A stretch of DNA of 34,247 bases. It comes from Actinomycetes bacterium. Lineage in GTDB: Bacteria; Actinomycetota; Actinomycetes; Streptomycetales; Streptomycetaceae. Position numbers and translations under genes: made by a program. Positions 333-18,221 of the stretch are shown piece by piece. How positions within the stretch are numbered: the stretch's first letter is position 1; every line of letters begins with the position of its first letter. The notes under the pieces were generated by a model. That model had not been told where the DNA came from and made no database searches. It saw only the letters and a list, made by a program, of their open reading frames with translations. The stretch is taken from positions 1 through 34,247 of the forward strand of contig WRCZ01000003.1 of assembly GCA_009783685.1 (NCBI GenBank). Reading direction: 5' to 3'.

Positions 333-3233
333 TCAGTCGATGGCGTCCGCGAGGATCTCCAGGATGTGGCGGTACGGCTTGCCCGTGGCCCGGCTCATGC
401 CGATCTCGCAGGTGAGGTTGCACGACGCGTAGGCGTCGTGGGAACCGCGGTTGACCTCGGCGGCCTGCGCGGCCGTCGCGGACTGCGTGACCTCCGGGTG
501 CAGCAGCCCGCGGTCGCCCGCGAACGCGCAGCAGCCCCAGGAGTCGGGCACCGTCACCTCGGTGGCCACCGCGCCGGCCAGCGCGCGCAGGTCGTCGGTG
601 ATGCCGAGGTGCACGGTGGAGCACGTCGGGTGCAGCGCCAGGGACTTCATCCGGCGCGGTTCCGGCAGCGCGGGCAGCACGTGCTCGCGGGTGAAGGTCA
701 CGCTGTCGGTGAACCGCAGCGCCTCGTAGCGGGGCCGGTCCTCCTCGGGCAGCGCCCCCGCCAGCTGCGCCAGGCCGTGCGTGCAGGATGAGGCGTCGCA
801 GACCACGGGGAGCCGCCCGTGGTCGCTGGCCTCCCACAGCGCCTGGAGGGTGCGGGACGCCATCGCGGCGTGGCCCTTCGTGTAGCCCTTGGACTGCCAC
901 GGCGTGCCGCAGCACAGCCCGGACAGGCCCTCCGGCACGGTCACCGGCACGCCCGCGCGGTCGCACAGGTGCAGGAACGCGGCGGCGGCACCGGCGGGCC
1001 GCGAGCCGGCCGGTGCGCCTTCCTGCTCGCCGGTGAAGACGCTGCCGATGCACGCGGCGAAGAACACCGCCTGCGCGCCGGGCGCCTGGCGTGCCGCGGG
1101 CCGCGGCGTGCCCGAACGGGGGACGCCCGCCGCCCAGTCGGGGACGAGCTCGCCGGCGCCGAGCCGGCGCGCCGCGGTGGTGGCGGCGCGCACCACCGGC
1201 GCGGGCGCCGCGTGGGCCGCGCCCAGGCCGAGCCGCACGCCCTTGACGGCGCCGCCCCAGTGGCGGGCCGTGGTGCTCCCGGCGGCCTGCGCGAACGCGC
1301 TGTGCCGGTCGCCGCGCAGCCGCTTCATCACCGCGCCGGTGTCGATGGTGACCGGGCAGGCGGTGACGCACAGGCTGTCGGCCGCGCAGCTGTCGACCCC
1401 CGCGTACGCGTAGTCCTCCTCCAGCACCCTGCGCCGCTCGTCGTCGCCCGCGGCGACCGCCAGCGCGATCTCCCGCTGCAGGGCGATGCGCTGCCGCGGG
1501 GTGGTGGTGACGTCGGCCGTCGGGCAGACCGGCTCGCAGTAGCCGCACTCCACGCAGCGGTCCACCTCGCCGTCCACGGCGGGCACGTCCTTCAGCCGCC
1601 GCAGGTGGACCGTCGGGTCGTCGTCCAGCAGCACGCCGGGGTTCAGCACGCCCGACGGGTCGCACAGCCGCTTGAGTTCGCGCATCACCTCGTACAGCTC
1701 GTCGCCGTACTGGCGGCGGACGAACGGCGCCATGGCCCGGCCGGTGCCGTGCTCGGCCTTGAGGGTGCCGCCCTCGCGCAGCACCAGGTCGACCATGTCG
1801 TCGGTGAAGCGCGCGTAGCGGTCGACCTCCGCGGAGGTGTCGAACCGCTGGGTGAGCATGAAGTGCAGGTTGCCGTCGCGGGCGTGACCGAAGATCACCG
1901 CGTCCTGGTAGCCGTGCCGGTCGAACAGGCCGGTCAGCCCCTCGCAGGTGCCGGTGAGCCGCTCCATGGGGACGGCGATGTCCTCCAGCAGCGCGGTCGT
2001 CCCCACCGGGCGCGCCCCGGCCACGGCGGTGTACAGGCCCTTGCGCGCGTGCCACATCGCGGCCCGCTCGCGGGCGTCGCGGGTCAGTGCCGTGCCCGTC
2101 ACCGCGGGCAGCGCGTCGAGCACCGGGCGGGCCGCGGCCAGGACCTGCTCCAGCTCCTCGGCGCGGTCCTCGGCGAACTCGACCAGCAGCGCGGCGTGCC
2201 CCTCGACCCGCAGACCGCGCAGCGCGGGGCTCGCGTCGGGCGCGACCTGCGCCACGCGCAGCGAGGCCGCGTCGAGCAGTTCCGCGGTACGGGCGCCGGC
2301 GGCGAGCAGGGCGGGCAGGGCGTCGGTCGCCTCCGCCAGCCCGGGAAGGATCAGCAGCCCGGTCGCGGAGTGCGGAAGCACCGGGACGGTACGGAACACC
2401 GCCTCGCCCACGAAGCCGAGGGTGCCCTCGCTGCCCACCATCAGATGGGCGAGCACGTCGACGGGGGAGGAGTGGTCGAGGAAGGAGTTCAGGCCGTACC
2501 CCATGGTGTTCTTCATGGCGAACAGCCGCTCCACGGTGGCCCTGGCCCCGGCCGAGGACCGGACCCGGTCGCGCAACCGGAGCAGGCCCGCGTGCAGTTC
2601 CGGCTCCCGGTCGCGCAGCCGGTCGTCGGCGTCGCGGGCCGCCGAGTCGACCACGGTGCCGGACGGCAGCACGAACTGCAGTGATTCCAGGGTCCGGTAG
2701 GCGTTGTCCTTCGTCCCGCAGTTCATGCCGCTGGAGTTGTTCGCCACCATCCCGCCGACGGTGCACGCCGACTCGCTGGCCGGGTCCGGCCCGAGCCGGC
2801 GCCCGTACCGGGCCAGCCGCGCGTTGGCCTGACGGACCGTCAGGCCCGGCTGGAGGCGGATGCGGTGGCCGTCGTCGAGCACCTCCGCCTCGCGCCAGTG
2901 GGTGCGGACGTCGACCATCACGCCGCCGCCGCCGGCCTGGCCGGACAGGCTGGTGCCGCCCGAGCGCAGGGTGAGCGGTATCCCCGCCTCGCGGGCGCCG
3001 GCCATCAGCGCCGCGACCTCCTGGGCGGACGCCGCCCGGACCACGGCCTGCGGCGTGAGCAGGTAGGGCGAGGCGTCGTGGGCCAGTGCGGCACGGCGGG
3101 GCAACTCGGCCGACACGCGCGCCGGGTCGGCGACGCACGAGCGCAGCATCGCCACCAGGCCGGCCGCGCCGTCGCCGTCCGGTGCGGCACCTTCCGGGGC
3201 GTGGGTGGCGGACGTTCGTGCGGTGCGGCTCAT
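333..3233 (-). CDS. FAD- and Fe-S-containing D-lactate dehydrogenase (D-2-hydroxyacid dehydrogenase)
   Basis: Predicted flavoprotein of 966 residues oxidising D-lactate (or a similar D-2-hydroxyacid) to pyruvate and passing electrons through Fe-S clusters to the respiratory chain. Domains in order: FAD-binding PCMH domain with SGGTSLSGQ at about residues 91-99 and GTLGF further on; FAD-linked oxidase C-terminal domain (GHARDGNLHF, AEHGTGRAMAP); two 4Fe-4S motifs (CVECGYCEPVCP near 558, CAADSLCVTACP near 614); then a CCG-type heterodisulfide-reductase-like domain (LCCGTPWQSKGY, SWGCCAFAGDRG). It is one long chain combining what GlcD and GlcF or LldE-type subunits do separately. The ATG at 3233 has GGAGAA seven bases upstream. 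It is last in the leftward operon, 35 bp after anmK. Because MurQ in the same module releases D-lactate, that is the likely substrate. D-2-hydroxyglutarate or glycolate remain possible. Confidence 0.88.
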   Translation of the reverse strand: MSRTARTSATHAPEGAAPDGDGAAGLVAMLRSCVADPARVSAELPRRAALAHDASPYLLTPQAVVRAASAQEVAALMAGAREAGIPLTLRSGGTSLSGQAGGGGVMVDVRTHWREAEVLDDGHRIRLQPGLTVRQANARLARYGRRLGPDPASESACTVGGMVANNSSGMNCGTKDNAYRTLESLQFVLPSGTVVDSAARDADDRLRDREPELHAGLLRLRDRVRSSAGARATVERLFAMKNTMGYGLNSFLDHSSPVDVLAHLMVGSEGTLGFVGEAVFRTVPVLPHSATGLLILPGLAEATDALPALLAAGARTAELLDAASLRVAQVAPDASPALRGLRVEGHAALLVEFAEDRAEELEQVLAAARPVLDALPAVTGTALTRDARERAAMWHARKGLYTAVAGARPVGTTALLEDIAVPMERLTGTCEGLTGLFDRHGYQDAVIFGHARDGNLHFMLTQRFDTSAEVDRYARFTDDMVDLVLREGGTLKAEHGTGRAMAPFVRRQYGDELYEVMRELKRLCDPSGVLNPGVLLDDDPTVHLRRLKDVPAVDGEVDRCVECGYCEPVCPTADVTTTPRQRIALQREIALAVAAGDDERRRVLEEDYAYAGVDSCAADSLCVTACPVTIDTGAVMKRLRGDRHSAFAQAAGSTTARHWGGAVKGVRLGLGAAHAAPAPVVRAATTAARRLGAGELVPDWAAGVPRSGTPRPAARQAPGAQAVFFAACIGSVFTGEQEGAPAGSRPAGAAAAFLHLCDRAGVPVTVPEGLSGLCCGTPWQSKGYTKGHAAMASRTLQALWEASDHGRLPVVCDASSCTHGLAQLAGALPEEDRPRYEALRFTDSVTFTREHVLPALPEPRRMKSLALHPTCSTVHLGITDDLRALAGAVATEVTVPDSWGCCAFAGDRGLLHPEVTQSATAAQAAEVNRGSHDAYASCNLTCEIGMSRATGKPYRHILEILADAID

Positions 3234-3268
3234 GCGGCTTCTCCAGGACGGCGTCGGGGGCGAGGGGT

Positions 3269-4483
3269 TCAGGAGGTGGCGGGGGCGGCTGCGGTGCCGT
3301 CGCCGGGGGCGCCGGCACCGGCCACCCGCAGCGTACGCGGCGCCACCGTCGCCGGCGCGGGGAGCCTGAGCGGCCCCCGACCGGGGGTGATGCTGCCCAG
3401 CAGCGAAGCATGCCGCGCGCCGGTCGCCGACGGCAGGGTGCCCGGCAGCCCGTGGACGGTGAGGAACCCCAGCACCGCGAACGCCAGCGCCTCCTTGGCG
3501 TCGGACGGCACTCCGAGGTCGTCGCTGGACAGCAGCCGCACGCCCGGCAGTTCGTCGGCGATCATGCGCATCATGACGGGATTGTGCGCGCCGCCGCCGG
3601 AGACGGCCAGTTGGGTCACGCCCCGCTCCCGGCACGCGCCGGCCACGGTGACCGCGGTCAGCCGGGTGAGCGTGGCGAGCACGTCGTTCGGGTCGGGCGT
3701 GGGCACGTCGGCGAGCGCGGCCTGCAGGTACGGCAGGTGGAACAGTTCCTTGCCGGTGCTCTTGGGCGCGGGCAGCGCGTAGTAGGGCTCGTCCAGCAGC
3801 CTGCCCAGCAGCGCGGGGGAGACGGTGCCTGCGGCGGCGCCGCGGCCGGACTCGTCGTACGCGGCGGCGCCCGACGTGAAGTGCCGTACCGCCGCGTCGA
3901 GCAGGGCGTTGGCGGGCCCGGTGTCGAAGGCGACCGGGTCGGCACCGGGGGCGACCACGGTGACGTTGGCGATGCCGCCGAGGTTGAGGGCCGCCGGGAC
4001 CCCGGGCAGCCCGCGCAGCAGGAGCGTGTCGGTCAGGCCGACCAGCGGGGCGCCCTGCCCGCCCGCGGCCACGTCGCGGCTGCGCAGGTCGGACACCACC
4101 GGCAGCCCGGTGGCCTCCGCGATCCAGGCGGGCTGGCCGAGTTGCAGGGTGCCGCGCACCACGCCGTCCTGCACCCAGTGGTGCATGGTCTGGCCGTGCG
4201 AGACCACGAGGTCGGCCCGCCCGTCGCACAGTTCGGCATCGGCGCGCACGGCGGCGTCGGCGAACGCCTGCCCGATGCCGGTGTCCAGGGTGCAGAGGGC
4301 CTGCGTGGACGTCGCCGACGGCGGCAGGGCCGCGGCGATCGCGCCGCGCAGCGCCTCGGGGTACTGCGTGCTGATCCGGCCCAGGGGCCGCATCACGAGG
4401 ACGTCGCCCTCCAGCGTGATGTCGGCCGCGGCGGCCTCGATCGCGTCGTAGGAGGTGCCGGACATCAGGCCGATGACGCGCAT
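3269..4483 (-). CDS. anmK: Anhydro-N-acetylmuramic acid kinase
   Basis: Cytoplasmic kinase that opens the 1,6-anhydro bond of anhydro-MurNAc and phosphorylates it to MurNAc-6-phosphate, the substrate of MurQ. The 404-residue product has the family hallmarks: N-terminal GLMSGTSYDAIE (residues 5-16), SHGQT (95-99), the catalytic-base region SRDVAAGGQGAPL with Asp137, NLGGIANV (167-174), FDTGPANALLD, and a late SGGGAHNP loop. The family's usual SLDG is SYDA here. The ATG at 4483 has GGGAG at good spacing; an in-frame extension further upstream would add a non-conserved tail, so I reject it. It is third in the leftward operon. A 172-bp gap with tandem repeats and a hairpin separates it from the symporter gene, so it may also have its own control. 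Confidence 0.93.
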   Translation of the reverse strand: MRVIGLMSGTSYDAIEAAAADITLEGDVLVMRPLGRISTQYPEALRGAIAAALPPSATSTQALCTLDTGIGQAFADAAVRADAELCDGRADLVVSHGQTMHHWVQDGVVRGTLQLGQPAWIAEATGLPVVSDLRSRDVAAGGQGAPLVGLTDTLLLRGLPGVPAALNLGGIANVTVVAPGADPVAFDTGPANALLDAAVRHFTSGAAAYDESGRGAAAGTVSPALLGRLLDEPYYALPAPKSTGKELFHLPYLQAALADVPTPDPNDVLATLTRLTAVTVAGACRERGVTQLAVSGGGAHNPVMMRMIADELPGVRLLSSDDLGVPSDAKEALAFAVLGFLTVHGLPGTLPSATGARHASLLGSITPGRGPLRLPAPATVAPRTLRVAGAGAPGDGTAAAPATS

Positions 4484-4496
4484 GGTGCTCCCGTCG

Positions 4497-4543
4497 TTCG
4501 GAGGGGCGGGCTTCGGAGTTGGCGGGCTTCGCGGAGGGCGGGA
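4497..4543. repeat. Three imperfect tandem repeats of 15-16 bp upstream of anmK
   Basis: Units are TTCGGAGGGGCGGGC (4497-4511), TTCGGAGTTGGCGGGC (4512-4527) and TTCGCGGAGGGCGGGA (4528-4543). They begin 14 bases before the anmK start codon and run back into the hairpin at 4539-4558. Their role is unknown. They may have arisen by slippage or may bind a regulator. Confidence 0.6.
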
Positions 4544-4558
4544 CTGCGGGGAGTCCCG
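4539..4558 (-). terminator. Stem-loop between symporter gene and anmK (attenuator or internal terminator)
   Basis: CGGGACT at 4539-4545 pairs perfectly with AGTCCCG at 4552-4558 around a 6-base loop. It lies about 100 bases beyond the symporter stop and 55 bases before the anmK start in the leftward transcript. There is no T-run. It could reduce read-through into anmK and the dehydrogenase gene, or stabilise the upstream mRNA. Confidence 0.4.
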
Positions 4559-4583
4559 ACGTCGCGGAGACCAACGTGGACGA

Positions 4584-4599
4584 CCATGGACCACCATGG
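4584..4599. repeat. Paired CCATGG palindromes 10 bp apart
   Basis: CCATGG occurs at 4584-4589 and again at 4594-4599, exactly one helical turn apart, in a wider GACCACCATGGCCCACCACG-like repeat between the symporter gene and anmK. Each copy is itself palindromic, so the pair could form a hairpin or be a protein site. No function can be assigned. Confidence 0.4.
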
Positions 4600-4655
4600 C
4601 CCACCACGGACCGGGCGGGGCGGGCCGGATCGCGGCACGCCCCGCCCGGAGCCGG

Positions 4656-6236
4656 TCAGGACGTGCCGGCCGCCGCGTCGATCGGGCCGGCGGTGGCGGG
4701 GTCCTCGGCGGTGCCGGTGCCCGGGGCCACGGCGGGGGCCGCGGCCGGGGCGCCGTGGAACAGGCTCATCACCCCGCCGACGACGAGCGTCACGACGACG
4801 CCGATCGGCACCAGCCACTGCGCGGCGATCGCGGTGGGCACGGTCGCTCCGGCCACGGACACGTCGATCTTCACCTGGCGCACGATGTACGTCATGACGG
4901 CCACGGTCACCACGAACGCGACGACCGCGTCGACCTCGTTCGCCCGCTTGACCAGCCGGCCCAGCAGGAACGCGCCGAGCAGCGCGCCGTAGGTGTAGCC
5001 GGCGATGGTCAGGCCGGTCAGGTAGACGTTGCCGGAGCTGGTGCTGAACGCGCAGGCGAACACCGCCATGAGCACCGCCCACACCAGGGTCATGACCCTG
5101 GCGAGCTTCAGGAGCGTCTCGTCGGAGGGCGAGCGTTTGAAGAGGTTGTGCGCGATGTCGGAGACGGTGGAGTTCGACATCGAGTTCAGCGCGGAGGACA
5201 GCGAGCCCATCGCGGCGCCCAGGATGCCCGCCACCAGCAGGCCCGAGATGCCGACGGGCAGGCTGTGCAGGATGAACTGCGGGTAGAGGTTGTCGGAGCT
5301 GCTCAGGCCGAGGTCCTTGAAGCTGCGGCCCTTGTTGTACGACCACAGCAGCGCGCCGACCAGCGAGAAGGCGGCGAACTGGATGGTGACGAAGATGCCG
5401 GAGGCGATCATCGCCTTCTGGCCGTCGCGCAGCGTGCGGGTGGCCAGGATGCGCTGCACGATGAGCTGGTCGGAACCGTGGCTGGCCATCGCGAAGATGG
5501 CGCCGCCGAGGATCGCGGTGGGCAGCGCGAACGAGCTGGTGAGCACGTGCTGCAGGCCGAAGTCGGTGTCGAACAGCTTGAACTGCCCGTTGTGCAGGGC
5601 CTGGGAGAAGCCGTGGCCGCCGACGTGCCCGGTGAGCACCGCGATGGCGAGGATGGCGCCGCCGAGGTAGAGGCCCATCTGGATGGCGTCGGTCCAGATG
5701 ACCGCCTTGATGCCGCCGAGGTAGGTGTAGACGACGGTGATCAGGGTCAGCACCACGATGATGACCTTGAAGCTGGTGTGCACGCCGAGTTCGTCGAGCA
5801 GCAGCTTGATGGGGATGGCCGACGCGAACAGCCGCACGCCCTCGGCGAGCAGCCGGGTGAACACGAACGTCACCGACGCCAGGCCCTGCAGCTTCAGCCC
5901 GAAGCGGTGCCCGAGGTACTGGTAGGCGCTGACGAAGCCGCCCCGCTTGTAGAGCGGGATCAGCACGGTGGCCACCACGATCCGGCCTATGACGTAGCCG
6001 AGGGCGAGTTCGACGTTGCCGAAGCCCTGCCCGCTGTACGCGCCGCCGGGGACGCTGATGACCGTCAGGACGCTGGTCTCGGTGGCCACCACCGAGAACG
6101 AGACGGTCCACCAGGGCATGTGCCCCTCGCCGACGAAGTAGTCCTTGGCGGACTTCTGCCGTCCGGAAAGGCGCAGGCCGATCCAGGCGATGGCGACGAG
6201 ATAGACGGCGATCACCACGAGGTCGAGTTGACGCAC
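4656..6236 (-). CDS. Sodium:solute symporter (SSS family), probable MurNAc/amino-sugar importer
   Basis: Integral membrane Na+/substrate symporter of 526 residues with about 13-14 hydrophobic segments. Family features are visible: YFVGEGHMPWW after the first helix, ATETSVLTVISVPG in the second/third helix region, SHGSDQLIVQRILATRTL in the middle, and NSMSNSTVSDIAHNLFK late in the chain. I prefer the GTG at 6236 because AAGGAG lies five bases before it; the GTG at 6242 would touch that ribosome-binding site. The gene follows the BadF-type kinase gene and precedes anmK in one leftward unit. Established MurNAc pathways in E. coli and B. subtilis use the PTS protein MurP, which I do not find here. 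That this symporter carries free MurNAc, anhydro-MurNAc or a related sugar is inferred from context. Sequence alone shows only an SSS transporter. Confidence 0.88.
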   Translation of the reverse strand: MRQLDLVVIAVYLVAIAWIGLRLSGRQKSAKDYFVGEGHMPWWTVSFSVVATETSVLTVISVPGGAYSGQGFGNVELALGYVIGRIVVATVLIPLYKRGGFVSAYQYLGHRFGLKLQGLASVTFVFTRLLAEGVRLFASAIPIKLLLDELGVHTSFKVIIVVLTLITVVYTYLGGIKAVIWTDAIQMGLYLGGAILAIAVLTGHVGGHGFSQALHNGQFKLFDTDFGLQHVLTSSFALPTAILGGAIFAMASHGSDQLIVQRILATRTLRDGQKAMIASGIFVTIQFAAFSLVGALLWSYNKGRSFKDLGLSSSDNLYPQFILHSLPVGISGLLVAGILGAAMGSLSSALNSMSNSTVSDIAHNLFKRSPSDETLLKLARVMTLVWAVLMAVFACAFSTSSGNVYLTGLTIAGYTYGALLGAFLLGRLVKRANEVDAVVAFVVTVAVMTYIVRQVKIDVSVAGATVPTAIAAQWLVPIGVVVTLVVGGVMSLFHGAPAAAPAVAPGTGTAEDPATAGPIDAAAGTS

Positions 6237-6337
6237 GCTCACTCCTTACAACTGGCCGGTGGTGTCACCGGGGACGATGGGACGGTGGGGCCGCCGGCCG
6301 GAGGGGTGGTCCGGCCCTGAGCGGTACGGCCCCGGCC

Positions 6338-7315
6338 TCAGGGCGATGCCGCGGGAACGGCCGTGCGGCCGGCGCGGACGAGGAAGGGTTCGTGGGCGGC
6401 GCAGCCGCCGAGTGCCAGCCGCCGCGCGCCGTCGAGCGGGTCGCCGAGCGCCGGCCGGATCTCCAGCGGCGGCGCGGACCGCGAGAGCAGCGCGTGCAGC
6501 GGGCCGGTCAGGGGCGCGCCCAGGTGGGTCAGGCCGCCGGTGACGGCCACCGGCACCGGGCCGTCGTCGCGGCCGCCGACGGTGCGTGCGGCCGCGGCGA
6601 CGGCCTCGGCCAGGGCGCCTGCCGCCTCGCGCAGGACCGCCGCGGCGACGGCGTCGCCGGCGGTCGCCGCCCCGGCGACGGCGGGGGCGAAGGAGGCCGC
6701 GGCCCGCGCCGGGTTGCCGGTGCCGCCGACCGCGTGGGGCAGTTGCTCCAGCGGTCCGAACTGGCGCGCGGCCGCCTCGGTGAGGGCGGTCGCCGGGCCC
6801 CGGCCGTCGTGGGCGCGCAGCGCGGCCCGCAGGCCGGCGCGGCCGATCCACGCGCCGCTGCCCTCGTCGCCGAGCCAGGGGCCCCAGCCGTCGACGCGGG
6901 TGAAGGTCCCGGCGCCGAGGCCGATGGTGACGGCACCGGTGCCCGCGGCCAGCACGACGCCGGTGGAGCCGCCGAGGGCGCCGGCGTGCGCGGTCACCGC
7001 GTCGCTGGTGACCGCGGTCCGCTCGGTGGGCAGCGCCTCCTGGAGCAGGCCGGCGAACTCGCGGGCGGCGGCCGGCGCCGAGGCGGCACCGGCCGCGCCC
7101 ACGCAGACGCAGGCCAGCCGCTGCCCGCCGAGGTGCGCCAGCAGCGGACGGGCCGCGCCGAGCACCGACGACACGGCCGCCGCGACCCCGCCGGACTCGG
7201 CCAGGCCCGGGGCGCCGGGCGCCTCGCCCGCCGCCACGGCCGCGCCGGCCGTCGCGTCCCAGATCTGGGCGCGACAGCCGGTCTTGCCGAGATCCACGGC
7301 CAGTACCGCCGTCAT
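6338..7315 (-). CDS. BadF/BadG/BcrA/BcrD-type amino-sugar kinase (MurK/GlcNAc-kinase-like)
   Basis: ASKHA-fold cytoplasmic kinase of 325 residues. It opens with VLAVDLGKTGCRAQIWD (phosphate-1 motif). The middle has VVLAAGTGAVTIGLG and then GWGPWLGDEGSGAWIG, the family hallmark, and VAVTGGLTHLG near the end is the adenosine motif. The family includes N-acetylglucosamine kinases and the Clostridium MurK enzyme, which phosphorylates MurNAc and GlcNAc. Next to a symporter and murQ the likely job is making MurNAc-6-P from imported MurNAc; GlcNAc or GlcN kinase is the alternative. The ATG at 7315 is chosen because the glycine-rich start follows at once; purine-rich AAGGAAAGGCAGGGGAG precedes it. 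It is first in the leftward operon, whose promoter I place at 7408-7437. Confidence 0.82.
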   Translation of the reverse strand: MTAVLAVDLGKTGCRAQIWDATAGAAVAAGEAPGAPGLAESGGVAAAVSSVLGAARPLLAHLGGQRLACVCVGAAGAASAPAAAREFAGLLQEALPTERTAVTSDAVTAHAGALGGSTGVVLAAGTGAVTIGLGAGTFTRVDGWGPWLGDEGSGAWIGRAGLRAALRAHDGRGPATALTEAAARQFGPLEQLPHAVGGTGNPARAAASFAPAVAGAATAGDAVAAAVLREAAGALAEAVAAAARTVGGRDDGPVPVAVTGGLTHLGAPLTGPLHALLSRSAPPLEIRPALGDPLDGARRLALGGCAAHEPFLVRAGRTAVPAASP

Positions 7316-7407
7316 CTCCCCTGCCTTTCCTTGCCGGTTCCCTGCCGATGGGGACCGCGGTGCGTACGCCGTGACCTGTGGCGACAGCCGTACGGTGCGG
7401 TCGAGCG

Positions 7408-7437
7408 AGTATCGGAACAACATCCTCCGGATGTCAA
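7408..7437 (-). promoter_or_regulatory. Promoter of the leftward MurNAc operon
   Basis: On the minus strand TTGACA (7437-7432, perfect -35) and GATACT (7413-7408, -10) are 18 bp apart. This gives a leader of about 90 bases before the kinase gene. The spacer contains an inverted repeat ACATCC-TCC-GGATGT (7420-7434) that overlaps the -35 hexamer, a possible second operator. Confidence 0.6.
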
Positions 7438-7438
7438 T

Positions 7439-7470
7439 AAGTAACTTTGAACCCCTCGCTTCGTAACTTT
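7439..7470. promoter_or_regulatory. Candidate operator: repeated GTAACTTT between divergent promoters
   Basis: GTAACTTT occurs at 7441-7448 and again at 7463-7470, 22 bp apart (about two helical turns, same DNA face). The first copy lies in the near-perfect palindrome AAGTAACTT (7439-7447). It is an AT-rich island in a very GC-rich region and lies between the two divergent promoters, next to the -35 of each. The neighbouring RpiR/MurR-type regulator is the natural candidate to bind it. The binding is inference. Confidence 0.55.
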
Positions 7471-7500
7471 TTGCCAATCGGCGCGCCGGGAGACTACGCT
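7471..7500 (+). promoter_or_regulatory. Promoter of the murR-murQ unit
   Basis: TTGCCA (7471-7476) and TACGCT (7495-7500) are 18 bp apart, 25 bases before the ATG at 7526. The -35 directly abuts the second GTAACTTT copy, which suits autoregulation by the RpiR protein. Confidence 0.5.
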
Positions 7501-7525
7501 GACGCCCACCCACCCAGGAGGATCC

Positions 7526-8470
7526 ATGGCCCGCCAGGTCTCACGTCGCGCCCCCGCGGAGGCGTCGCACGACCCCGCCGCGGTCGACGTCCTCAAGCGC
7601 ATCCGCACCGCGCTGCCCGACCTGGCACCGTCCGAGCGGCGGGTGGCCGACGCCGTGCTGGCCGATCCGGCGCAGGCCGCGGGCCTGGCCATCAGCGCGC
7701 TCGCCGAGCGGGCCACCACCTCCGCGGCCACGGTCATGCGCTTCTGCCGGGCGGTCGGCCTGACGCACTACCCCCAACTGCGGCTCGCCCTGGCCGCCGC
7801 GGCGGCGCACGAGAACGCGCTGGGCGGCGACCGCCCCGCGCTCGGCACCGACATCAGCGCCGAGGACCAGCTGGACGACATAGTCCGCAAGATCATCTAC
7901 AACGAGGTCCGCGCGCTGGAGGAGTCCTGCGCCGGCCTCGACGTCGCCGAACTGGGCCGCGCGGTGGACGCCGTGGCCGGTGCCCGCAGGATCGACGTCT
8001 TCGGCGTCGGCGCGAGCGCCTTCGTCGGCCAGGACCTGCAGCAGAAGCTGCACCGCATCGGGCTGATCGCCTTCATCTGGACCGACGTGCACGCGGCGCT
8101 GACGGCCGCCGCGCTGCTCGGTCCCGGCGACGTGGCCGTGGCGATCTCCCACTCCGGCGAGACCGCCGACGCCGTCGAGCCCCTGGAGGCGGCCGGCGAG
8201 CTCGGCGCCACCACCGTGGCCCTCACCAACTTCCCCCGGTCGAGCCTGGCCGCCGCCGCCGACATCGTGCTGACCACCTGCGCCCGCGAGACGCCGTTCC
8301 GGTCCGGCGCGACGGTCAGCCGCATCGCCCAACTCGCCATCGTGGACTGCCTGTTCGTCGGAGTGGCACAACGCTCCTTCGACACCACGGCCACCGCCCT
8401 GCAGCGGACCTACGGCGCCGTGCAACGGCGCAAGCGCCCGGCCGGCCGCCGCACCCCGTCCGGCGGCTGA
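7526..8470 (+). CDS. murR: RpiR-family regulator with SIS domain, MurR-like
   Basis: Transcription regulator of 314 residues. The N-terminal RpiR helix-turn-helix spans about residues 15-90 (DLAPSERRVADAVL, AISALAERATTSAATVMRFC). The C-terminal SIS sugar-phosphate isomerase domain spans about 145-275 and includes IDVFGVGASAF and VAISHSGETADAVEPL. In E. coli MurR, the SIS domain senses MurNAc-6-P and the protein represses murQP. Here the gene is immediately upstream of murQ (36 bp) and divergent from the kinase-symporter-anmK-dehydrogenase operon. AGGAGG lies seven bases before the ATG at 7526. It probably controls both directions through the AT-rich site at 7439-7470. The ligand and the sign of regulation are inferred from the family. 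Confidence 0.85.
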   Translation: MARQVSRRAPAEASHDPAAVDVLKRIRTALPDLAPSERRVADAVLADPAQAAGLAISALAERATTSAATVMRFCRAVGLTHYPQLRLALAAAAAHENALGGDRPALGTDISAEDQLDDIVRKIIYNEVRALEESCAGLDVAELGRAVDAVAGARRIDVFGVGASAFVGQDLQQKLHRIGLIAFIWTDVHAALTAAALLGPGDVAVAISHSGETADAVEPLEAAGELGATTVALTNFPRSSLAAAADIVLTTCARETPFRSGATVSRIAQLAIVDCLFVGVAQRSFDTTATALQRTYGAVQRRKRPAGRRTPSGG

Positions 8471-8506
8471 TCGCCGCCCGCACCACCCGGAAAGGAACGA
8501 CCCCAC

Positions 8507-9421
8507 GTGGACATCAGCACGCTGGGCAGCCTCGGCACCGAGACCCGCAACGAGCGCACCGCCGGCCTCGACGCCATGCCGGTGGCGGACCTGCTCGCCG
8601 CCATGAACGACGAGGACGCGACCGTCGCCGGCGCGGTGCGCCGGGCCCTGCCGGAGATCGCCGAGGCGGTGGCGGCCGCCGAGGCGGCACTGCGGCGGGG
8701 CGGCCGGCTGATCTATCTCGGGGCGGGCACCAGCGGCCGGATCGGCCTGCTGGACGCCGTCGAGTGCCCGCCGACCTTCGGCACCGCGCCGGAGCAGGTC
8801 ATGGGCCTGCTCGCCGGCGGCCCCGGCGCGTTCATCACCGCCGTCGAGGGCGCCGAGGATGAGCCGCAGCGCGCGGTGGACGACCTGCGGGCCGCCGGGC
8901 TGACCGACGCCGACGTGCTCGTCGGCCTGGCCGCGAGCGGCCGCACCCCGTACGTGGTGGGCGGCCTGCGGTACGCCCGCGAGGTCGGCGCCGCCACCGT
9001 CTCCGTCGCCTGCAACGCCGGCGCCGAGGTGAGCCGGCACGCCGGCATCGCCATCGAGGTCGTCACCGGACCCGAAGTGCTCACCGGCTCCACCCGCCTG
9101 AAGGCCGGCACCGCAGAGAAGCTCGTCTGCAACATGCTCTCCACGGCCACGATGGTCCGGCTCGGCAAGGTCTACGGGAACCTGATGGTCGACGTGCGCG
9201 CCACCAACGCCAAGCTGGTCGACCGCGCCCGGCGGATCGTCGTCCAGGCCACCGGGGCCGCTCCCGAGGACGCGGAGCGGGCCCTGACCGCCGCCGACGG
9301 CCACGCCAAGACCGCGATCGTCATGCTGCTGTGCGGGCTGACCCGCGACGAGGCGGCCGAGGCGCTGCGGCGCGGCGACGGCAGCATCCGGGCCGCGGCC
9401 GGCGCCGGCACGGCGGGCTGA
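8507..9421 (+). CDS. murQ: N-acetylmuramic acid 6-phosphate etherase
   Basis: Cytoplasmic lyase-type etherase cleaving the D-lactyl ether of MurNAc-6-P to give GlcNAc-6-P and D-lactate. The 304-residue length is typical. The SIS domain carries GAGTSGR (72-78), the signature ECPPTFG (86-92) and AVEGAEDEP (112-120). Glu86 and Glu114 match the glutamates that act as acid/base in E. coli MurQ. ASGRTPYV follows near 143-150. The start is GTG at 8507 with AAGGA ten bases upstream; no better start is near. It is second in the murR-murQ unit and is followed by a strong stem-loop. Its D-lactate product explains the dehydrogenase gene in the divergent operon. Confidence 0.95.
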   Translation: MDISTLGSLGTETRNERTAGLDAMPVADLLAAMNDEDATVAGAVRRALPEIAEAVAAAEAALRRGGRLIYLGAGTSGRIGLLDAVECPPTFGTAPEQVMGLLAGGPGAFITAVEGAEDEPQRAVDDLRAAGLTDADVLVGLAASGRTPYVVGGLRYAREVGAATVSVACNAGAEVSRHAGIAIEVVTGPEVLTGSTRLKAGTAEKLVCNMLSTATMVRLGKVYGNLMVDVRATNAKLVDRARRIVVQATGAAPEDAERALTAADGHAKTAIVMLLCGLTRDEAAEALRRGDGSIRAAAGAGTAG

Positions 9422-9500: not shown

Positions 9501-9890
9501 TCAGTGGGGGAGTGCGGCAACGACGTCGATCTCCACGAGGATGTCCATCAGGTCCGAGCCGACGGTGGTGCGCACCGGGTACGGCTCGGTGAAGAACTGC
9601 CGGTAGACCGCGTCGTAGGCCGCGAAGTCGCGGCGCAGGTGCTGGAGGTGGACCGTCACCTTGAGCACGTCGTCCGTGGTCAGCCCGCGGGCCGCCAGCA
9701 CCGCCGCCACGTTGCGCAGCACCTGTGCCGTCTGCTCCTCCACCGTCCCGGCCACCGCACCCGTCACCGGGTCCTGCGGGCCGAAACCGGCCGTGAACAG
9801 CAGCCCGGCCCCCGCCACGCCCTGGCTGTACGCCCCCGCGGGGCGCGGTGCGTTCTCGGTGCGCACCGCCTCCTTGCCGTGCCCGCTCAT
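9501..9890 (-). CDS. RidA family (YjgF/YER057c/UK114) enamine/imine deaminase
   Basis: Small trimeric cytoplasmic protein of 129 residues. RidA-type members hydrolyse reactive enamine/imine intermediates to ketoacids and ammonia. Visible features: GAYSQGV near the N-terminus, LFTAGFGPQDP, and a C-terminal YPVRTTV...LVEIDVVA in which the Arg and Glu match the family's substrate-binding arginine and partner acid. The ATG at 9890 overlaps the stop of the upstream dehydratase gene by 4 bp (ATGA), so translation is probably coupled. It is last in a creatininase - dehydratase - RidA operon. The pairing with a dehydratase suggests that the dehydration product is an enamine, for example from an amino-sugar acid. 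This is inference. Confidence 0.85.
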   Translation of the reverse strand: MSGHGKEAVRTENAPRPAGAYSQGVAGAGLLFTAGFGPQDPVTGAVAGTVEEQTAQVLRNVAAVLAARGLTTDDVLKVTVHLQHLRRDFAAYDAVYRQFFTEPYPVRTTVGSDLMDILVEIDVVAALPH

Positions 9891-11014
9891 CGCGTCAGGT
9901 CCCCCTCGCGCTCGTTGACCGCGGCGAAGTGCCGCAGCTTGTCCTCGTCGACGGTGACACCGAGGCCGGGGCCCTCCGGCACCCGCAGCCGCCCGTTCTC
10001 CAGGTGCAGCGGCTCGATGATGTCGTCGGCGTGCAGGTAGTACATGCTGTCGATGGCCCGCGAGAGCACCGGCGTGCTGGCGACGACCGCCAGGTGCGCC
10101 GCGGTGGCGATGCCCAGCTCGCCGCCGCTGTGCAGGTTCATGCCGAGCCCGAAGGTCTCGCAGTGCGCGGCGAGCGCCTTGGTGGCGGCGATGCCGCCCC
10201 ACTTGTAGACGTCGCCGTGGATGACGTCGACGGCGTTCAGCCGCATCGCGGGAGCGAACTCCTCGAACCGCACCACGCACATGTTGGTGCACAGCGGGAT
10301 CCGGACCTTCGCCTTCACCTGGCTCATGCCCTCGATGCCCGAGCAGGGGTCCTCCAGGTACTCCAGGTCCAGCTCCTCCAGGGCGATGCCCGCGCGCACC
10401 GAGTCCGGCACCGACCAGGCCGCGTTGGGGTCCACCCGCAGGTTCACCTCGGGAAGCGCCGCGCGCAGCGCCCGCAGGATGGCCACGTCCCCGCCGACGT
10501 CCCGGGTGCCCTTGAGCTTGACGGCGTCGAAGCCGCCCTCCGCCACCACCCGCACCGCGTGCTCGGCGAGCGCGTCGGCCAGCGCCGCGCCGCTCGCCCC
10601 GGGGGCGTCCGCGCGGGTGATGAGGGCCGTGATCGGGACCTCGTCGCGCACCCGGCCGCCCAGCAGGTCGGTCACCGGCTGGCCCGTCGCCTTGCCCATC
10701 GCGTCCCAGCACGCCACGTCGATGGCGGCGAGCGCCGCGTAGCCGAGGTAGCCGTGGAAGAACGGCACCATGTGGTGCCTGCGGTGGAAGCTCTCCAGCG
10801 CGAACGGGCTGGTGCCGATGAGGTCCTTGCCCAGCGTCTCGACGATCGCGGCGACCGGCCGGCCCCACATGGTCTCGCCCCAGCCCTCGACGCCGCTGTC
10901 GGTGCGGATGCGGACCACCGTGCGGGTCTCTCCCGTCTTCGTCTCGAAAGAACTGGTGAACGGGTTGACCAGCGGCAGGTTGACGACCCACACGTCGACA
11001 TCGACGATCTTCAT
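9887..11014 (-). CDS. Enolase-superfamily acid-sugar dehydratase, glucarate-dehydratase-like subgroup
   Basis: 375-residue enzyme with the enolase N-terminal capping domain (residues 1-115) and (beta/alpha)7 barrel. Active-site residues are visible: KLK with Lys166 and Lys168, metal ligands Asp195 (VDPNAAW), Glu221 (EYLEDP) and Asn244 (CTNMCV), and an Asp268-His295 dyad (HGDVYKWGG, NLHSGGELG). Asn as third ligand with an Asp-His dyad is the pattern of glucarate dehydratase relatives. Muconate-cycloisomerase and dipeptide-epimerase relatives carry Lys where Asp268 is and Asp as third ligand. The likely reaction is therefore dehydration of an aldarate or aldonate to a 2-keto-3-deoxy acid; the exact sugar acid is not readable. 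ATG at 11014 has GGAGAGAAG upstream. It follows the creatininase gene by 109 bp. Confidence 0.82.
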   Translation of the reverse strand: MKIVDVDVWVVNLPLVNPFTSSFETKTGETRTVVRIRTDSGVEGWGETMWGRPVAAIVETLGKDLIGTSPFALESFHRRHHMVPFFHGYLGYAALAAIDVACWDAMGKATGQPVTDLLGGRVRDEVPITALITRADAPGASGAALADALAEHAVRVVAEGGFDAVKLKGTRDVGGDVAILRALRAALPEVNLRVDPNAAWSVPDSVRAGIALEELDLEYLEDPCSGIEGMSQVKAKVRIPLCTNMCVVRFEEFAPAMRLNAVDVIHGDVYKWGGIAATKALAAHCETFGLGMNLHSGGELGIATAAHLAVVASTPVLSRAIDSMYYLHADDIIEPLHLENGRLRVPEGPGLGVTVDEDKLRHFAAVNEREGDLTR

Positions 11015-11123
11015 GCTTCTTCTCTCCAACTCGGTGGTGCTCTGGGGTGCCGGGCCCGGTGACGGCGGGCTCAGCGGTGGCGCGCCCGGCGGTGCCGGGC
11101 GCCGCGGTGGCAGGGGGCGGGGC

Positions 11124-11897
11124 TCAGCGGGTGGCCGCATCGAACGCCCGGATCGCGCGGGCCAGCCCTTCGGCCCGCGCCTCCAGCAGCCGGCGGCCGC
11201 GGTCCGGGTCGGCCGCCGACGCGTCGTCGGTCGCCCCGCCGACCCTGGCCCACTCGCCGTGGCGCTCCACGGTCAGGCCCGGGTACGGCGGGTGGTCGAA
11301 CAGCGGCGGCGGCTCCACCGGCGCGCGCGCCGGCACGGGCGTGCGGACCAGGTGCGGGTGCGCGGCCAGCATCAGCGACGTCTCGAACCAGCCGGCGTGC
11401 CCAGGCGTGACCTCGGGACGCTCCCCGCCGTCCTCCGCGCCGTCCTCCCCGGAGGTCACCGTCCAGTACGAGCACGCCGCGGCGGTGACGTCGCGGCGCA
11501 GCGCGAACCGCTTGACGGCCAGCCGCATGATCTCGTCGTTCCCGCCGTGCCCGTTGACCACCATGACCCGGCCGTAACCGGACGCGGCGAGCGAGTCCAG
11601 GATGTCGTCGAGGACCGCCCCCAGCGTCGCCGCGCCGAGGGACACCGCGGCCGCGAACAGGTGGTGCGGGCTGTGGCCGAAGGGCAGGGCGGGCAGGCGC
11701 ACCAGTTCCAGGTCGCCGTCCTGCGCGAGCAGGGCCGTGGCCCGGTCGAGCACCTCCTCGGCGAGGAGGGTGTCGGTGCCCATCGGCAGGTGGCCGGCGT
11801 GCTGCTCCTGGGACCCGATGGGGAGCAGCGCGATTCCCGTTGCTCCCGCCGCCCGCACCTCCTGCCAGGTCGACTCGGCCAGTTTTCTGTGGATCAC
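11124..11897 (-). CDS. Creatininase-family metal-dependent amidohydrolase
   Basis: 257-residue cytoplasmic hydrolase. Metal-binding motifs of the creatininase/MftE family are present: PIGSQEQHAGHLPMGTD with Glu31, His33 and Asp42, NGHGGN with His117, and HAGWFETSLML carrying the late glutamate. Members open cyclic amides (creatinine, 2-amino-5-formylamino pyrimidine derivatives) or cleave the mycofactocin precursor. No mycofactocin genes are present here, so a lactam or amide in the sugar-acid pathway is more likely. The start is GTG at 11897, with GGAAGG seven bases upstream. It is first in the leftward three-gene operon and only 41 bp from the divergent ROK-like gene, so a shared control region is likely. 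Confidence 0.82.
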   Translation of the reverse strand: MIHRKLAESTWQEVRAAGATGIALLPIGSQEQHAGHLPMGTDTLLAEEVLDRATALLAQDGDLELVRLPALPFGHSPHHLFAAAVSLGAATLGAVLDDILDSLAASGYGRVMVVNGHGGNDEIMRLAVKRFALRRDVTAAACSYWTVTSGEDGAEDGGERPEVTPGHAGWFETSLMLAAHPHLVRTPVPARAPVEPPPLFDHPPYPGLTVERHGEWARVGGATDDASAADPDRGRRLLEARAEGLARAIRAFDAATR

Positions 11898-11938
11898 AGC
11901 GCTACCTTCCTGAATGCCGGTCGTGGCAGAGTCGGGCC

Positions 11939-12898
11939 ATGACCGATGAACGTTTCCCCCTGCGACTGGTGCCCGAGCTCGAACCGGAACCGGTCGCCCC
12001 GCGTGCTCCGCGCAGGCTGGGGGCGGTCGAGCTGGTGCCCGGCCTGATCAGGGCCGCGGTCCTGGACATGTCCGGCACGGTGCTGGAGCGCACCGAGACC
12101 GGGTACGACGCGGCCGCCGCGCTGCCCGCCGACCTCGACGCGGCGCTCGACCGCGCCGCCCGGGTGTTCGCCGGCACCCCGCCGCAGGGCATCGGCGTGG
12201 CCGCGGCCGGGCTGGTCGACCCCGACGCGGGGCTGATCACCGAGGTCAACGACGTGCCGGCGCTGCGCGGTTATCCGGTGGTGGAGCGGCTGCGGGCGCT
12301 GACCGGGGTGCCGGTCAGGGTGGAGCACCACGCCAGGCTCCAGGTGCTCGGCGACCGGTGGTTCGGCCCCGGCCGCGGCCGCCGCACGTTCGCGTCGGTC
12401 TCCACCGGGGAGGTGCTGGGCGTCGGCATCCTCTACGCCGGCCAGGTGCTCGCCCCGCCCGGCGGCCGCAGCGGCGCCCACATGACCGTGTCGGCCAGCG
12501 GGGAGCGCTGCACCTGCGGCAGCCGCGGCTGCTGGAAGACCGTCGCCACCACCCGCTGGCTGCGGGCCAGGGCGCGGTCCGCCGGTCTGGGGGAGGCGAT
12601 GTCGCTCGCCACCCTGGTGGACCGCGAGGACGAGGCCGCGCGGCAGGTGCTGGCCGAGTACGCGGAGAACGTCGCGCTGGGACTGGTGAACGTCCAGCAG
12701 CTGTTCGCTCCCGGCCTGTTCGTGCTGCACGGCGAGGCGCGCGAGGGCGGCGAGCGGTTCCGTGGGCTGATCGAGGAGCGGCTGCGGTCGGACGTGGTCT
12801 GGGAGGGCGCCGAGAAGCCGCGGGTCGTGGTGAGCACGGCCGCGGTCGACGACGTGGCGCTGCTCGGCGGCGCCGGGATGGTGCTCTCGCAGGTGTAG
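11939..12898 (+). CDS. Degenerate ROK-fold protein without kinase residues or DNA-binding domain
   Basis: 319-residue protein clearly built on the ROK sugar-kinase fold: LIRAAVLD near 37-43, GIGVAAAGLVDP (84-95), GEVLGVGILYAGQVL (157-171), and the ROK zinc site with His181 and Cys191, Cys193, Cys198 in CTCGSRGC. The N-terminal ATP loop (normally DxGGTxxR) is ELVPGLIR. The catalytic VENDA motif is VEHHA (128-132), so the catalytic Asp is replaced by His131. The sugar-binding Glu of GEIGH is replaced by Ser. There is no helix-turn-helix in the 30-residue lead segment, which is rich in Pro, Glu and Arg. It is probably a sugar-sensing or partner protein rather than a kinase or classical repressor. 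No ribosome-binding site is seen before the ATG at 11939. It diverges from the creatininase operon. Confidence 0.8.
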   Translation: MTDERFPLRLVPELEPEPVAPRAPRRLGAVELVPGLIRAAVLDMSGTVLERTETGYDAAAALPADLDAALDRAARVFAGTPPQGIGVAAAGLVDPDAGLITEVNDVPALRGYPVVERLRALTGVPVRVEHHARLQVLGDRWFGPGRGRRTFASVSTGEVLGVGILYAGQVLAPPGGRSGAHMTVSASGERCTCGSRGCWKTVATTRWLRARARSAGLGEAMSLATLVDREDEAARQVLAEYAENVALGLVNVQQLFAPGLFVLHGEAREGGERFRGLIEERLRSDVVWEGAEKPRVVVSTAAVDDVALLGGAGMVLSQV

Positions 12899-12922
12899 CG
12901 GGGCCGCCGCGCGGCGGCCCCG
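12899..12922. terminator. Perfect palindromic terminator between ROK-like gene and dipeptide ABC operon
   Basis: Positions 12899-12910 and 12911-12922 are exact reverse complements (CGGGGCCGCCGC on the left arm). The palindrome begins directly after the ROK-like stop codon and ends 11 bp before the end of the convergent ATPase gene, so it can serve both. Confidence 0.7.
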
Positions 12923-12933
12923 CCCGTCCACGG

Positions 12934-13866
12934 TCATCGACCGCCCCCGGCGGTGGCGGGGCCCCCGTGGCCCGCCCCACCGGAGCCGCCGCCGGTGCCG
13001 CCGGCCGTGGCGGCGTCGGCCCCCGCCGCGGCGCGGGCCCGGCGGCCCCGGCGCGGATCGGGCACCGGCACCGCGTCCAGCAGCTGCCGGGTGTACGGGT
13101 GCTGCGGGTCGCGCAGCACCTGCGCCGCCTCCCCGACCTCGACCAGCCGGCCCTGGCGCATCACGGCGATGCGGTCGGCCACCTGCTGCACGACGGCGAG
13201 GTTGTGGGAGACGAAGAAGTAGGTCAGCCCGCGCCGCTGCTGGAGTTCGGCGAGCAGATCGAGGATCCGGGCCTGGACCGACACGTCCAGGGCGCTCGTC
13301 GGCTCGTCCAGCACGACCAGCCGCGGCTCGACGGCCAGGGCGCGGGCGATGGACACGCGCTGGCGCTGCCCGCCGGAGAACTCGTGCGGGTAGCGGTCCT
13401 GGATCCCGCCGTCCAGGCCGACCGACTCCAGCAGCGCGCCCACCCGTTCCCTGATCTGGCGCCGGCCGTTGCGGCCGCGGGCCTCGGGGTCGTGGGTGAC
13501 CATCGGCTCCGCCACGATCGCGGAGATGGTCAGCCGCGGGTTCATGCTGGAGTACGGGTCCTGGAGGACGACCTGGAACTGGCGGCGCAGACGGCGCAGT
13601 TCGGCCGGGGCGAGGGCACCGAGGTCCTGCCCGTCGAAGCGCACGGTGCCGGCGGTGGGCTGCTCCAGCCGCAGCAGCAGCCGGGTCAGCGTGGTCTTGC
13701 CGCAGCCCGACTCGCCGACCAGCGCGAGGGTCTCGCCCTCGCCGACGGTCAGCGACACGTCGTCCACCGCGACGGTTCCGTGCCGCCCGCCGAACTCCTT
13801 GCGCAGCCCGGCCAGTTCCAGCAGGGGCCGGCGGGTCTTCGGTGCCGTTCCGGCGTCGGTGGTCAT
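12934..13866 (-). CDS. Dipeptide/oligopeptide ABC importer ATPase (DppF/OppF type)
   Basis: Cytoplasmic ATPase subunit of 310 residues. Walker [10 protein letters not shown] is near residues 47-55, the Q-loop is [13 protein letters not shown], the ABC signature FSGGQRQR and Walker [13 protein letters not shown] follow, and the H-loop is FFVSHNLAV. The C-terminal [16 protein letters not shown] is the oligopeptide/dipeptide ATPase tail, followed by a low-complexity Gly/Ala-rich extension (about 35 residues) without known function. The ATG at 13866 overlaps the stop of the partner ATPase gene by 4 bp. It is last in the five-gene importer operon. Confidence 0.9.
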
Positions 13867-14702
13867 GCCAGCTCCAATCGGGGGGTGGCGGCCAGCAGCC
13901 GGCGGGTGTAGTCGTCGGCAGGGCGGTGGAAGACGTCCAGCACGTCGCCGGTCTCCACGACGCGGCCCTGGTGCATGACGGCCACCCGGTCCGCGGTCTC
14001 CGCGACCACGCCGAGGTCGTGGGTGATCAGCAGGACGGCCATGCCGTGCCGCTCCTGGAGGGAGACGAGCAGGTCGAGGATCTGCCGCTGCACGGTGACG
14101 TCCAGCGCGGTGGTGGGCTCGTCGGCGATGAGCACGCGCGGCCGTCCCACCAGGGCGCCGGCGATCATCACGCGCTGGCGCAGGCCGCCGGACAGCTCGT
14201 GCGGGTACTGCCGGAACCGGCGTTCGGGGTCGGGGATCCCGACCTCGTCCAGCGCCTCGACGGCCGCCGCATCGGCCTCCGCCCGGGACAGGCCCCGGTG
14301 GTGGCGGAGCACCTCGGCGACCTGGGCGCCGACCCGGCGCAGCGGGTCGAGGCTGGTCATCGGGTCCTGGAAGACCATGGCGATGTCCTGGCCCCGGATC
14401 GCGCCGAGTTGCTTCTCCGACAGGGTCAGCAGGTCGCGCCCGTCGAAGAGGATCCGGCCGCCCGCGTAGACGCACGGGGGTTGCGGGTTGAGCCGCAGCA
14501 CGGACAGCGCGGTGGCCGTCTTGCCGCTGCCGGACTCGCCGACGACGGCGAGCGTCTCGCCCTGCGCGAGGCGCAGGCCGACGCCGCGGACGGCGTGCAC
14601 GGTGGTGGTGTCCAGCCGGAAGTCGACGCTCAGGTCGGCGATCTCCAGGACCGGCTCTGCGGTCGGCTTGCTGCCGGTGGTCATCGGCTTGTCAGTGGTC
14701 AT
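13863..14702 (-). CDS. Dipeptide/oligopeptide ABC importer ATPase (DppD/OppD type)
   Basis: Second ATPase subunit, 279 residues from ATG 14702. Walker [11 protein letters not shown]-loop [12 protein letters not shown], signature LSGGLRQR, Walker [13 protein letters not shown] and H-loop LLITHDLGV are present in order, and the C-terminal [14 protein letters not shown] is typical of the family. The ATG at 14702 overlaps the permease stop (ATGA); a second Met 18 bases on (14684) is an alternative start. It forms a heterodimer with the downstream ATPase and powers the two permeases encoded upstream. Confidence 0.9.
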
Positions 14703-18179: not shown

Positions 18180-18214
18180 CCGTTCCGGCAGATGGAATGG
18201 TGATGCGCTAAGCT
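18162..18214. promoter_or_regulatory. Divergent control region of the peptide importer and iclR
   Basis: TTCCAT at 18162-18167 and ATGGAA at 18192-18197 form an inverted repeat, and the palindrome GTTC-CATT-GAAC (18161-18172) overlaps the first arm. These are candidate sites for the adjacent IclR regulator. TAAGCT at 18209-18214 fits a -10 hexamer whose start site would fall on or next to the iclR ATG at 18222. There is no ribosome-binding site, so the iclR message may be leaderless. No convincing -35 is visible. Confidence 0.45.
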
Positions 18215-18221
18215 AAGCGAC

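Follow-up and report, generated by a model that had tools for sequence, protein, structure and literature searches.

A probable actinobacterial gene set for N-acetylmuramic acid catabolism with a built-in D-lactate dehydrogenase

Six genes at positions 333-9421 of a 34,247-nucleotide stretch of contig WRCZ01000003.1, the whole of which was analysed and is termed the window here, very likely form an actinobacterial murTKQ-like set for the catabolism of N-acetylmuramic acid (MurNAc) and/or its 1,6-anhydro form (anhydroMurNAc), with a D-lactate dehydrogenase built in. The window comes from a soil actinomycete of the genus Actinacidiphila, whose genome is a draft (71.5% complete, 658 contigs), and its dehydrogenase protein is identical to one encoded on NZ_SUMC01000117 of A. 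oryziradicis. The gene content, coordinates and orientations given in a preliminary description of the module were borne out by Pfam and NCBIfam profiles and by the positions of the open reading frames, which place the genes in two divergent units. The leftward unit (minus strand) consists of a BadF/BcrAD-type sugar kinase gene (6338..7315; PF01869), an SSS-family sodium symporter gene (4656..6242; PF00474), anmK for anhydro-N-acetylmuramic acid kinase (3269..4483; NF007146 and PF03702) and the gene for a 966-residue flavin adenine dinucleotide (FAD) and Fe-S dehydrogenase of the LDHD/Dld-II type (333..3233; PF01565, PF02913, PF13183 and PF02754), separated in that order by gaps of 95, 172 and 35 bp. 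Across a gap of 210 bp from the kinase, the rightward unit (plus strand) holds an rpiR gene, encoding a transcription regulator with HTH_6 and SIS domains (7526..8470; PF01418 and PF01380), and an accessory copy of murQ, encoding MurNAc-6-phosphate (MurNAc-6P) etherase (8507..9421; TIGR00274). The term self-contained, used previously for this module, is slightly too strong, as the six genes do lie together but nagA is located elsewhere in the genome.

Sequence and structural modelling strongly indicate that the dehydrogenase oxidises D-lactate, and it is very probably an enzyme built for the D-lactate that the MurNAc pathway frees. Its single chain carries FAD-binding, FAD-oxidase C and 4Fe-4S ferredoxin domains and a CCG (LutA/GlcF-like) C-terminal part. 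In an AlphaFold2 model (predicted local distance difference test score 86.6), the predicted FAD half (residues 22-536) was closest to mouse LDHD with D-lactate (Z 30.0, root-mean-square deviation 2.5, 442 residues), the next matches being an Acetobacterium lactate dehydrogenase and a D-lactate dehydrogenase from the Porcellio gut, with human D-2-hydroxyglutarate dehydrogenase (D-2-HGDH) at Z 27.6; modelled residues 720-964 resembled LutA (Z 22). Fold likeness by itself leaves the substrate unfixed, and the active site was examined using residue roles taken from PMC10589216 and PMC7801405. The substrate and metal residues of LDHD are all present (Arg397, His450, His457, Glu494 and His495) and invariant across 43 homologues. 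Subsite B, formed in LDHD by Trp351, Ala363, Ser365 and Ile407 (PMC10589216), is hydrophobic in the window enzyme (Tyr401, Ala414, Leu416 and Met459), with the same residues in homologues encoded beside lactate permeases; D-2-HGDH requires Lys401 and Asn443 (PMC7801405). The proposal that this dehydrogenase is dedicated to the D-lactate made by MurQ thus gains support from its fold, from its catalytic and pocket residues and from the lactate-permease context of its relatives.

The homologues group according to gene context, with 18 loci with a lactate permease, some of them also with LutABC, and 23 loci with sugar-acid genes for an FAH hydrolase or an IlvD dehydratase (among them L029, L030, L031, L032, L058, L060, L061, L068, L088, L089, L110, L119 and L122), the contexts of the 47% identity group being weak. 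By established chemistry, sugar-acid pathways of the FAH/IlvD kind should yield pyruvate together with lactate or glycolate. From these contexts the subfamily appears to travel with whichever pathway yields a short 2-hydroxy acid, and it may generally serve to oxidise 2-hydroxy acids, many pathways having recruited it. No relative of the dehydrogenase was found among viral contigs. Elsewhere in the genus, a YdiJ-like FAD/Fe-S protein (G010:C90, L040:8115-10883; 429 bits with the YdiJ model) is encoded next to a phosphoserine-aminotransferase-like gene (serC) and is probably the D-2-HGDH of the serine pathway.

Comparison of gene neighbourhoods demonstrated that the linkage of murQ to the dehydrogenase gene is not unique to this genome, the same order being present in Actinacidiphila, Streptomyces and Micromonospora. 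A canonical (core) murQ was present in 35 of 35 Actinacidiphila genomes, with no adjoining dehydrogenase at the loci inspected; the window genome likewise carries such a second copy (G000:C537). Copies of murQ of the window type (identity of 73% or more) and dehydrogenases of the window type (79% or more) were found in the same five of these 35 genomes and in no others (Fisher p 3e-6, uncorrected for ancestry). Two of them (G008 and G025) hold the six genes in the same order between unrelated flanks, and in two more (G002 and G013) the module is split at contig ends, with summed distances of 5290 and 5294 bp against 5277 bp in the window. Within a set of 80 named relatives, Streptomyces and Micromonospora loci at 75-83% identity had murQ in the module in all 13 testable cases, a further locus in this identity range (L053) being interrupted by a contig end and left outside the 13. 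A search starting from murQ gave the window type in 9 of 395 Streptomycetaceae genomes, and in seven of the nine an intact dehydrogenase gene lies close by, in two cases across contig ends. The Micromonospora modules (L044, L046, L051, L062 and L113) are without badF and rpiR and keep the SSS, anmK, murQ and dehydrogenase genes, a composition suggesting that anhydroMurNAc may be the sugar taken up.

The linkage also extends beyond the window type, with diverged murQ genes paired with diverged members of the dehydrogenase subfamily in different operons. In Arthrobacter sp. B2a2-09 the order is murQ-dehydrogenase-nagB-MFS (major facilitator superfamily)-anmK with overlapping genes, in Microbacterium mitrae and G483 it is murQ-ABC (ATP-binding cassette)-badF-dehydrogenase, and in Cryobacterium tepidiphilum an rpiR-dehydrogenase pair is divergent from an adjoining Dpp-type ABC-murQ-anmK unit. 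The dehydrogenase gene of Actinotalea sp. K2 stands at the end of a cluster with NamZ, rpiR and murQ genes, to which it is convergent. This locus (L063:9995-19453) encodes NamZ exo-muramidase, an amidohydrolase, a D-serine dehydratase-like protein, RidA, MurQ and the dehydrogenase, and is, by its predicted gene content, a fuller wall-digestion set. In G070, a Streptomyces by inferred genus, a dehydrogenase 75% identical to that of the window stands beside a core-clade murQ in the order rpiR-dehydrogenase-murQ-MurP-like phosphotransferase system (PTS), the PTS having the MurNAc PTS model as its best match at a score below cut-off; G240, from the same genus group, and Streptomyces spinosus have an identical murQ. 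In Leifsonia aquatica, rpiR and badF accompany the dehydrogenase gene, but murQ is missing. Across 148 genomes sampled from the whole class, with dehydrogenases taken at 51% identity or more, murQ was located within 10 kb of 2 of 20 non-window dehydrogenases, where uniform placement predicts 0.10 (P 0.005). On a quick tree of the dehydrogenases, which has some long branches and on which gains and losses are indistinguishable, the murQ label takes six changes, five of them forced by starred branches. Across the pairings murQ and the dehydrogenase are constant and the transporter and kinase vary. As judged from these genes, the idea holds more broadly than proposed, MurQ being repeatedly paired in actinobacteria with a dehydrogenase of the LDHD/Dld-II type; the expectation of a linkage conserved across actinomycetes stands as regards recurrence but not generality, the distribution being patchy.

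The remaining proteins of the module were assigned using family profiles. The window MurQ passed the equivalog model TIGR00274 (379.6 bits, cut-off 302) and keeps both motif glutamates, Glu86 in DAVEC (the DAxEC motif) and Glu114 in EGAED. The catalytic glutamates of Escherichia coli MurQ are presumably Glu83 and Glu114. AnmK passed NF007146 (609.8 bits, cut-off 440). The symporter, a member of the SSS superfamily by PF00474 (112.5 bits), is from its family and position a probable MurNAc/anhydroMurNAc importer with a MurT-like role. The BadF-type kinase (PF01869, 88.1 bits, cut-off 31.5) matched a kinase for MurNAc and N-acetylglucosamine (GlcNAc) in the PDB (8zo3, E 4e-17), with a hexokinase also among the best matches, and its pocket motif does not discriminate between the two sugars; it is a probable MurK-like kinase of MurNAc (or GlcNAc). 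The regulator, previously called MurR-like, does belong to the RpiR family but falls below the MurR equivalog model (NF012026, 136.9 bits against a cut-off of 408).

A conserved block (7408..7469, minus strand) in the divergent gap is the probable RpiR operator and promoter of the leftward unit. It contains two AAGTTAC direct repeats 22 bp apart (7469-7463 and 7447-7441), followed directly by TTGACA (7437-7432), 18 bp and GATACT (7413-7408) pointing to the kinase, this being the single sigma-70-like promoter in the 210 bp, with 0.1 expected in shuffled sequence. The repeats and promoter are kept together in 12 Streptomycetaceae modules, and a diverged block (CAAAAAGTTTCG ... CACTTATTGACA) is located upstream of the symporter gene in Micromonospora. 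The gap between anmK and the dehydrogenase is 15-25 bp in most relatives against 35 bp in the window; the conserved divergent block and these short gaps are compatible with a single leftward mRNA controlled by the divergently encoded regulator, on which the four genes may be co-transcribed.

Several observations weigh against a dedicated, linked dehydrogenase. By murQ type the module is rare among the Streptomycetaceae, and most relatives of the dehydrogenase do not adjoin murQ; for the Streptomycetaceae, dehydrogenases without murQ were counted in the 35 genomes of the genus and in the class-wide sample. In G089, murQ and the symporter gene are present but anmK and the dehydrogenase gene are missing, and G280 retains only residues 787-964 of the enzyme (L127:9158-9691) in an otherwise complete module, a remnant that is, from its sequence, a natural loss. 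A paralogue at 43-45% identity elsewhere in the window genome (G000:C225) means that the linked enzyme is maybe dispensable, and the 172 bp between symporter and anmK are enough for a second promoter. The pairing could moreover be the result of hitchhiking, a dehydrogenase for external lactate having landed beside murQ once by chance and then been inherited, and it is true that most window-type modules form one clade and that related dehydrogenases beside permeases serve external lactate. However, such pairs are found again with diverged genes, with murQ of other clades and with different transporters, the genes overlap in Arthrobacter, and a lactate permease was not found in the window genome, itself only 72% complete; a single chance landing is given scarcely any credence.

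The dehydrogenase could instead act on another 2-hydroxy acid (glycolate, D-2-hydroxyglutarate or a longer D-2-hydroxy acid), its proximity to murQ serving a different step. The family is broad, mouse LDHD accepting many hydrophobic D-2-hydroxy acids (PMC10589216), and some relatives occur in sugar-acid pathways that may yield glycolate. Nevertheless, such a substrate was considered unlikely, as the product of MurQ is D-lactate, the pocket is without a Lys or Arg for a second carboxylate and a better YdiJ-like paralogue, the one beside serC, exists in the same genus. The two candidate identities examined were rejected: YdiJ, a D-2-hydroxyglutarate dehydrogenase without D-lactate activity, for a score far below cut-off (NF049975, 167 bits against 1350) and for Met459 at a position occupied by Arg in YdiJ and in the paralogue beside serC, and GlcD, a glycolate oxidase, for a similarly low score (TIGR00387, 168 bits against 567.9) and for Ala414 at the site of its pocket-closing Tyr. 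D-2-hydroxyglutarate and glycolate, both named earlier as acids to compare with D-lactate, are thus disfavoured by profile scores and pocket residues alike. It was also considered that the MurQ-like protein acts on another sugar phosphate, in the manner of the GlcNAc-6-phosphate (GlcNAc-6P) dehydratase NagS, and that the module yields no lactate. NagS is a SIS-domain protein of streptomycetes that is related to MurQ and present in Actinacidiphila (PMC12680351), but it forms a separate clade, while the window protein scores above the MurQ equivalog cut-off with both motif glutamates kept, and MurNAc-6P agrees with the presence of anmK in the unit and with the lactate-type dehydrogenase as partner; this explanation is very improbable.

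Among known systems, the murTKQ genes of Tannerella forsythia (PMC5790795, PMC10465942) are nearest in plan to the window, combining a sodium symporter for PTS-independent MurNAc uptake, the BcrAD/BadFG-type kinase MurK and MurQ. T. forsythia is a MurNAc auxotroph, and its MurT, compared here by description only, is placed in the sodium symporter superfamily (PMC5790795); unlike in the window, no lactate dehydrogenase or anmK is described there, and the regulator and gene order are different. The E. coli murQP divergon with murR (PMC5061867) shares murQ, an RpiR-type regulator and divergent control with the window, but uses MurP PTS uptake, has no kinase gene in the operon and leaves D-lactate to unlinked enzymes. 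SCO4305-SCO4308 of Streptomyces coelicolor (PMC5061867) likewise combines an RpiR-type regulator with murQ in an actinomycete, but is of the core recycling type, with no symporter, kinase or dehydrogenase described. For E. coli, S. aureus, B. subtilis and S. coelicolor, the mur operons as described contain no lactate dehydrogenase, although some of their genes have no known function (PMC5061867), and searches of an open-access library found no paper that reports a murQ operon with a lactate dehydrogenase gene. For the dehydrogenase itself, mammalian LDHD (PDB 8jde and relatives) has the same FAD domains, Arg/His/His/Glu/His active site and hydrophobic side pocket, but is mitochondrial, has no Fe-S or CCG part and shows about 25% identity over the aligned structure. 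Shewanella Dld-II, described as a distant homologue of FAD-dependent yeast lactate dehydrogenase, is a D-lactate dehydrogenase encoded beside lldP and lldEGF in a lactate operon (PMC4468914), just as relatives of the window enzyme adjoin a lactate permease and LutABC; compared by description only, it serves external lactate, whereas the window enzyme is encoded in a MurNAc operon.

Beyond murQ, positions 9501-20134 of the window encode RidA, an enolase-superfamily protein, a creatininase, a ROK protein, a Dpp-type ABC transporter, an IclR regulator and a serine hydrolase that scores best with the PBP4B model of NCBIfam, though below its cut-off. This flank, possibly a wall-peptide part, also stands beside the module in G013 (L026) and, up to the contig end, in G002 (L024), and is missing from G008 and G025 as well as from the Streptomyces loci. 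A pyruvate-carboxylase-like protein is encoded 11 kb past murQ (20389-23769) and does not accompany the module in any of the inspected relatives.

In the proposed pathway, MurNAc or anhydroMurNAc would be brought in by the symporter and converted to MurNAc-6P by the BadF-type kinase or by AnmK, respectively, and MurQ would split MurNAc-6P into GlcNAc-6P and D-lactate. GlcNAc-6P would be processed by NagA, and D-lactate would be oxidised to pyruvate by the dehydrogenase, whose Fe-S clusters would pass the electrons to the respiratory chain, probably to quinone. The RpiR regulator would govern the divergent promoter region, and the core murQ presumably serves the recycling of the organism's own cell wall; the module would have a nutritional role. 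Corynebacterium glutamicum engineered for MurNAc use spills lactate, and its authors propose raising dld expression (PMC6165865); this spill offers a physiological reason for a linked lactate dehydrogenase.

The fate of MurQ-derived D-lactate is left open in the published mur operons compared here, and the operons described here appear to unite the two halves of MurNAc catabolism within a single set of genes. Such operons provide a testable marker for bacteria that use MurNAc as food, beyond the recycling of their own wall. They also offer a candidate importer of the SSS family and a ready part for the engineering of MurNAc use, for which the spill of lactate is a known limitation. More tentatively, and as rather less likely than not, the dehydrogenase may be a plug-in gained several times by actinobacterial MurNAc operons that use transporters of five types (SSS, carbohydrate ABC, Dpp-type ABC, MFS and MurP-like PTS), and the Micromonospora core may import 1,6-anhydroMurNAc. 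We know of no earlier anhydroMurNAc symporter; if this is true, the SSS protein would be the first known, and the module would be a tool to feed on the walls of other bacteria.

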